DNA from: Anaerosomatales bacterium
Lineage (GTDB): Bacteria > Actinomycetota > Coriobacteriia > Anaerosomatales > Anaerosomataceae
Direction of reading: 5' to 3'
Assembly (NCBI GenBank): GCA_030019445.1
Contig: JASEEU010000003.1
Location: 124,001 to 188,000 of the forward strand
DNA length: 64,000 nucleotides
The translations under genes were made by a program, and so were the position numbers. The notes under the pieces were generated by a model. That model was not told where the DNA came from. It searched no databases and saw nothing but the letters and a program-made list of their open reading frames with translations. Positions 4,436-5,711 of the stretch are shown piece by piece. How positions within the stretch are numbered: position 1 is the first letter of the stretch; each line of letters starts with the position of its first letter.

Positions 4436-4792
4436 ATGGCCACAGACCGGTGGTCGCTTCGCAACATCTATCTGTATCTCGTGTGTCTCATCACCCTGAT
4501 CATGATCATCTTCGGCACGGTGGGCATCGTCCGGAACGTCGTCGAGCTCGTCTATCCCGAGCCGCCCTACATCGACTACCCGACCGTCAAGGAGCCGGGC
4601 GTCGAGCAGCCGACGGCCGAGGAGCTCGAGGAAGTGCGCAAGGCCGAGCAAGACCGGCAGCTGCGCTACACCATCATCAACCTGGTCGGCAATGCCGCGC
4701 TGCTCCTGGTGGCCGGTCCGCTCTATGTCTATCACTGGCGCAAGATCGAGACCGAGCACGTCCCCTCGGGGAAGACGACGAGTGAGGAGTGA
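4436..4792 (+). CDS. Small membrane protein of unknown function
   Basis: A 118-residue protein that I do not recognise. It has two predicted membrane segments, about residues 12-33 (YLVCLITLIMIIFGTVGIV) and 83-100 (IINLVGNAALLLVAGPLYV), joined by an acidic Pro/Glu-rich loop. The hairpin topology leaves both ends on the same side. The start is supported by AGGAGG at 4425-4430, 5 bp before the ATG. The stop is 2 bp before the glutaredoxin ATG, so it probably heads an operon with the glutaredoxin and FTR/Rieske genes. A role as their membrane partner is possible but unsupported. Confidence 0.7.
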   Translation: MATDRWSLRNIYLYLVCLITLIMIIFGTVGIVRNVVELVYPEPPYIDYPTVKEPGVEQPTAEELEEVRKAEQDRQLRYTIINLVGNAALLLVAGPLYVYHWRKIETEHVPSGKTTSEE

Positions 4793-4794
4793 CG

Positions 4795-5040
4795 ATGAGC
4801 GTCAAGCTGTACGCGCTGTCGACGTGTCCCTACTGCCGCCGCACGAGGGAGTATCTGGACGACAACGACGTCTCCTATGACCTCGTTGAGGTCGATCTGC
4901 TGGAGGGGCAGGAACGGGCCGACGTGATCGCCGAGGTCAAGGAGGTATCCGGGGGGACCTCGTTCCCCGTGCTCGTCGCGGGTGAGGAGATCGTCGTAGG
5001 CTTCAACAAGAAGAAGATCAAGGAGCTGTTGGGACTGTGA
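4795..5040 (+). CDS. Glutaredoxin-family protein (CPYC)
   Basis: An 81-residue single-domain glutaredoxin with the classic dithiol active site CPYC (Cys11, Cys14) and a C-terminal GGTSFPVLVAGEEIVVGFNKKKIKELL segment, which provides the cis-proline and the glutathione-site-like GF motif. ATG 4795 has GAGGAG 5 bp upstream; a GTG at 4789 in the same frame is less likely. It overlaps the FTR/Rieske gene by 4 bp. Many glutathione-lacking anaerobes carry such NrdH/Grx-like proteins reduced by other partners. Here the FTR-type protein encoded next is the obvious candidate reductase (inference). Confidence 0.88.
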   Translation: MSVKLYALSTCPYCRRTREYLDDNDVSYDLVEVDLLEGQERADVIAEVKEVSGGTSFPVLVAGEEIVVGFNKKKIKELLGL

Positions 5041-5711
5041 GCGAGAGCGGTCCCCGTCGGCGCTTCTCGGCCGGCACGACCATCGAGGACCTCAAGGAGT
5101 ACATGGGTCCGTTCGCGGCGACCCTCGGCTACAAGTTCAATACGGACACGGAGTTCGTGGACGAGGTGCTCGAGTCGGAGATCGCGATCCTGGAACGGGA
5201 CGGCGACGTCTACTGCCCGTGTCGCATGAGGACCGGCGACCCCAAAGAGGATCTGAAGATCGTATGCCCTTGCATCCCGTTCTACCGCGATCAGTTCGCG
5301 GCCATGGACAAGTGCTGGTGCGGGCTGTTCATCAGGACGCACGTCGAGGACGGCTCGGATCTGATGGGCGTCATAGAGGAGCCGGAGCCCGGGACCCTGG
5401 TCGACGTGCCCGTCGCGCGCGCGACCGATATACCTGACGGCCAGGGACGTCATGTGAGGATCGGCCGAGTCGACATCGCCGTCTTCAACGCCGGTGGAGC
5501 GTTCTACGCCCTATCCAACCTGTGCCGCCACGCGTACGGCCCGTTGGCCGAGGGCATCGTGGACGGTCATCACGTCATGTGCCCATGGCACGGCTGGCGC
5601 TACGACGTGCGCGATGGCAGCACCGATCACCCCGATGCGGACGTGAAGACGTATCCGGTCGTCGTTCGTGACGGTGAGGTGCTCGTACGCATCGCGCTGG
5701 GCCGCCGCTGA
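5037..5711 (+). CDS. Ferredoxin:thioredoxin reductase catalytic domain fused to Rieske [2Fe-2S] domain
   Basis: A 224-residue two-domain redox protein. Residues about 15-110 carry the FTR catalytic-chain cysteine pattern: CPC (60-62), CPC (77-79) and CWC (93-95). In the family these bind a [4Fe-4S] cluster beside an active-site disulfide; the spacings here (14 and 13 residues) differ from the plant/cyanobacterial enzyme. Residues about 120-220 form a Rieske ferredoxin: Cys163-x-His165 and Cys182-x2-His185 in the CPWHGW box. There is no FTR variable chain nearby. The Rieske domain could supply electrons to the FTR site, which would then reduce the upstream glutaredoxin. Both domains are clear; the electron route is inferred. 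Confidence 0.88.
   Translation: MSESGPRRRFSAGTTIEDLKEYMGPFAATLGYKFNTDTEFVDEVLESEIAILERDGDVYCPCRMRTGDPKEDLKIVCPCIPFYRDQFAAMDKCWCGLFIRTHVEDGSDLMGVIEEPEPGTLVDVPVARATDIPDGQGRHVRIGRVDIAVFNAGGAFYALSNLCRHAYGPLAEGIVDGHHVMCPWHGWRYDVRDGSTDHPDADVKTYPVVVRDGEVLVRIALGRR

Follow-up and report, generated by a model that had tools for sequence, protein, structure and literature searches.

The plant and cyanobacterial ferredoxin:thioredoxin reductase (FTR; PDB 1dj7, 2pvd) has a variable subunit, a thioredoxin substrate and no fused module. In the ferredoxin:disulfide reductase (FDR) of Methanosarcina (PDB 4tpu), an N-terminal FTR domain is followed by a C-terminal rubredoxin, and the acceptor is methanoredoxin/NrdH. 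PDB 7pwe is a natural fusion in which glutaredoxin and FTR lie in one chain (glutaredoxin match at 6-84, FTR match at 81-172). The soluble Rieske ferredoxins of ring-hydroxylating dioxygenases (5bok, 1vck, 2e4q) stand alone or are oxygenase-bound, and none was fused to an FTR domain among the matches found.

The locus studied here lies in a window of 64,000 nucleotides, the whole stretch of DNA that was analysed, and encodes an FTR catalytic domain joined to a Rieske domain. The initial annotation had described an FTR/Rieske fusion overlapping a CPYC glutaredoxin gene, and this was confirmed, with both Pfam domains matched, at the coordinates below.

4436..4792, + strand: DUF5671 small membrane protein (Pfam PF18920, E 1.7e-8)
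4795..5040, + strand: CPYC glutaredoxin ORF (methanoredoxin/YruB-like), ATG start (Pfam Glutaredoxin, E 7e-14)
4825..4836, + strand: glutaredoxin active site CPYC, read from the sequence
5037..5711, + strand: FTR-Rieske fusion ORF, 224 aa, GTG start, stop at 5711
5085..5351, + strand: FTR catalytic domain (FeThRed_B), residues 17-105 (Pfam E 2.3e-19)
5214..5321, + strand: six cysteines, CPC-x14-CPC-x13-CWC, invariant in 44 aligned sequences
5406..5657, + strand: Rieske [2Fe-2S] domain, soluble Rieske-ferredoxin type, residues 124-207 (Pfam E 6.7e-20)
5523..5591, + strand: Rieske ligands C163-R-H165 ... C182-P-W-H185, all four invariant in 44 sequences

The FeThRed_B score of the fusion was 69.8 bits against a curated cut-off of 22, and the structures nearest to its FTR domain were 4tpu (E 2e-11) and 7pwe (E 5e-10). 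The catalytic fold and the six-cysteine motif are common to the fusion and the plant and cyanobacterial enzymes, whereas the spacing differs, as first noticed in the initial annotation: alignments gave CPC-x16-CPC-x8-CHC for plant-type FTR and x14/x13 with CWC for the fusion. The latter is close to the archaeal type, being nearly identical to the x14/x12 of Methanosarcina FDR. The middle residue of the last CxC is Trp in the fusion, Tyr in FDR and the catalytic His in plant FTR. When the cysteines were aligned to 4tpu and plant FTR, four of the six were predicted by homology to ligate a [4Fe-4S] cluster, and C62 and C95 to form the active-site disulfide; on the same grounds, the fusion is expected to bind the cluster and to catalyse disulfide reduction. 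No variable subunit was encoded among the annotated immediate neighbours of the fusion gene. Its absence had been regarded as a notable feature, but this subunit is exclusive to oxygenic phototrophs (PMC9025218).

The Rieske domain shares its fold and its CxH...CxxH ligands with dioxygenase Rieske ferredoxins and NirD, and in a Foldseek search of this half of the protein the best matches were the dioxygenase ferredoxins (prob 1.0). Its ligand loops are without the extra disulfide cysteines and the Ser of bc1-type Rieske proteins. Absence of these disulfide cysteines points to the low-potential, soluble type. The AlphaFold2 model of the whole protein had a mean pLDDT of 81 and a pTM of 0.75, and loop 63-76, beside the FTR cluster, was poorly predicted.

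The contig scan, which used two clade-typical peptides and could miss distant fusions, found 44 named fusions. Their contigs carry the label Actinomycetota, in most cases Coriobacteriia, and in one case Anaerosomatales. Two strict anaerobes from the subsurface, Anaerosoma tenue and Parvivirga hydrogeniphila, belong to that order (PMC9686372). Matches were obtained in 53 of 61 genomes, and in 50 there was a near full-length match to the fusion, counting the window's own genome, in which the fusion is present in one copy. The window protein was aligned with 43 relatives; one further relative (L071) was excluded, having an internal stop two codons after the first CPCR. FeThRed_B and Rieske were both matched in all 44 aligned proteins, and the six FTR cysteines and four Rieske ligands were invariant in every row. 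The initial annotation had named an assembly join as the risk, to be recognised by the lack of the fusion in relatives; 44 named contigs and 50 of 61 genomes refute an assembly or gene-calling artefact, for which no support was found and whose probability we regard as negligible. The FTR-Rieske fusion is genuine and conserved, a form of the FTR/FDR-glutaredoxin system specific to this lineage.

Selenocysteine within the fusion was considered and rejected. The in-frame stops of some relatives lie outside the cysteine motifs, and Cys was read at all loci checked.

The GTG start of the fusion overlaps the glutaredoxin stop by 4 bp, an overlap that is usual among Rieske-type loci. A profile of the window glutaredoxin located its counterpart directly upstream of the fusion in 43 of the 44 named Rieske-type loci, and in the remaining one (L060) the contig starts 50 bases before the match. 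The MBL, DUF5671, SPFH and NfeD neighbours differ between relatives, and the glutaredoxin alone is constant beside the fusion, so the pairing looks selected for. The DUF5671 gene, the glutaredoxin gene and the fusion gene likely form a three-gene operon in that order. A neighbourhood tblastn search placed the DUF5671 gene near the pair in 21 of 44 relatives, and its product is thus probably non-essential to the system. Scanning for promoters and terminators gave no useful result. The best PDB matches of the window glutaredoxin were 3ic4, 3nzn, 5cax and the glutaredoxin half of 7pwe, and by the first three it is of one family with the FDR acceptor methanoredoxin/NrdH. The 7pwe chain combines the same glutaredoxin and FTR families as the window pair, though it has no Rieske domain and its glutaredoxin is part of the chain, not the product of a separate, overlapping gene. 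Homology to these systems makes the glutaredoxin the putative substrate of the fusion, and we predict that it accepts electrons from the FTR-Rieske reductase.

For comparison, 125 other FTR loci were collected from four phylum samples: 57 from Actinomycetota, 30 from Nitrospirota, 19 from the phylum of a 'Deltaproteobacteria' MAG and 19 archaeal, from the phylum of a 'Thaumarchaeota' MAG. None of the 125 had a Rieske module, which makes this module, rightly recognised in the initial annotation, the unusual feature of the locus. The FTR motif was absent from the flanks of the Rieske-only matches (L076-L109), and the open-licence papers searched contained no report of an FTR-Rieske fusion. The accompanying view that FTR chains are normally stand-alone did not hold generally. 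With domains called by motif, most FTRs in the Actinomycetota and archaeal samples carried a C-terminal rubredoxin, making such fusions the commonest form there, and stand-alone FTRs predominated in the Nitrospirota and 'Deltaproteobacteria'-MAG samples. Across the four samples, a glutaredoxin of the same family lay upstream of 100 of 102 FTRs of CYC, CFC or CYU type, but of just one of 23 of CHC or non-Rieske CWC type. On these counts, pairing of FTR and glutaredoxin genes is common across prokaryotes. Since the coupling is a general system, it is not in itself unusual here; the novelty is the Rieske module, not the glutaredoxin pairing.

Several other architectures were seen in the survey. 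Two tandem, near-identical rubredoxin domains occur in actinobacterial FTR-rubredoxin proteins L122, L128, L131, L133 and L134. In some Nitrospirota (L203, L204, L205), FTR lies inside a protein of ~627 aa with an uncharacterised C-terminal part of ~440 residues, and a glutaredoxin is encoded upstream. A second FTR-like protein (CPCF...CPC...CHC, ~200 aa, with an uncharacterised C-terminal domain) occurs in some genomes of the order to which the window belongs (L166, L167 and L169), and L162 is a further case.

A tree was built from 84 FTR domains over 95 columns, with many forks unresolved; row L039_alone is an off-frame extraction artefact. Rieske-type FTRs were monophyletic (100/97), showing a single origin, and their clade fell outside the rubredoxin FTRs, on a long branch, separate from that of Methanosarcina FDR. 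They grouped weakly with stand-alone CWC FTRs (87/67), a grouping that joins two long branches. A recent rubredoxin-to-Rieske swap within the rubredoxin clade was unsupported, and from its position and long branch the Rieske type does not appear to be a simple recent domain swap.

The Rieske domain of the fusion occupies the C-terminal position that rubredoxin holds in FDR, each being a one-electron Fe module, and it most likely has rubredoxin's relay job. The fusion and the glutaredoxin would be a co-translated pair, an FDR-type enzyme and its substrate, with the Rieske domain standing in for the rubredoxin relay module of better-known relatives. An external low-potential donor (ferredoxin or ferredoxin reductase) would deliver single electrons to the C-terminal [2Fe-2S] cluster, from which they would pass to the FTR [4Fe-4S] cluster. 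Two successive one-electron transfers from there would reduce the C62-C95 disulfide, and the resulting dithiol would in turn reduce the CPYC disulfide of the upstream-encoded glutaredoxin, which could then serve enzymes such as ribonucleotide reductase. Taken as a whole, from donor to targets, we consider this relay probable, with the Rieske entry point and the glutaredoxin targets its more conjectural ends. The fusion may work like FDR, yet with Rieske in place of rubredoxin it is not classed as one. The order of donor, Rieske, FTR and glutaredoxin had been proposed initially as a self-contained path; the order remains the best reading and fits FTR-rubredoxin/glutaredoxin systems, but the path is not self-contained, because the fusion protein has no NAD(P)H, nicotinamide or flavin domain and an external one-electron donor is still required.

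Dioxygenase-type Rieske ferredoxins lie near -150 mV, above FTR disulfides, and the step from Rieske to FTR could consequently be uphill. Such a potential, perhaps too high for efficient relay, would suit a regulatory domain whose cluster responds to redox state or oxygen and controls an FTR whose own cluster is reduced directly by ferredoxin, as in plants. The stand-alone FTRs beside glutaredoxin in Nitrospirota and the 'Deltaproteobacteria'-MAG phylum likewise indicate that a relay is not obligatory. We nevertheless think regulation unlikely, given the invariant Rieske ligands, the resemblance to soluble electron-transfer ferredoxins and the occupation of the same position in FDR by rubredoxin, an electron-transfer domain. 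An expected potential of about this value would also favour flow in the opposite direction, from reduced glutaredoxin or dithiols through FTR and Rieske to an acceptor. Characterised FTR and FDR act as disulfide reductases, however, and the glutaredoxin is the sole window neighbour kept beside the fusion throughout, leaving reverse flow with very little probability. Within the preferred relay, a stronger proposal is that electrons must enter at the Rieske cluster, which would connect a Rieske-type donor chain to cellular thiol reduction via glutaredoxin. It is advanced tentatively, at somewhat under even chances; no such route was found in the literature searched.

The window's genome encodes ribonucleotide reductases of classes II and III. 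The glutaredoxin may serve these enzymes, in analogy to Methanosarcina barkeri, whose class III enzyme reportedly receives electrons from FDR (Wei et al. 2015, listed among the references of PMC5704485). An NADPH-type thioredoxin reductase is also encoded, so the FTR-Rieske/glutaredoxin pathway is not the sole one.

In FTR-rubredoxin proteins of other actinobacterial groups, an in-frame TGA takes the place of the last active-site Cys codon (motif CPC...CPC...CYU or CFU; L118, L128, L131, L134, L135, L141, L145-L147, L150, L151, L153-L155, L157, L158, L160 and L161), and it probably encodes selenocysteine. A Sec-containing FTR has been reported (PMC2398784), in passages that make no mention of a rubredoxin form. 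A second glutaredoxin in the window's genome (L254; G000 C22:52308-52481) has TGA at the first active-site position (TPT-U-PYC), and a tRNA-Sec is present as well (73.9 bits); on this basis the genome probably decodes selenocysteine. Its FTR-Rieske protein uses Cys despite this.

From this comparison, FTR-type disulfide reductases seem to have an exchangeable electron-entry module (none, rubredoxin or Rieske) alongside a constant glutaredoxin partner. Given how widespread the FTR-glutaredoxin pairing is in prokaryotes, plant FTR-thioredoxin seems to be a specialised version of a more general system. Subsurface actinobacteria would have a two-gene thiol-reducing system with Rieske where known relatives have rubredoxin or no module, and Anaerosomatales, an order with cultivated members, offers a place for testing module interchange.
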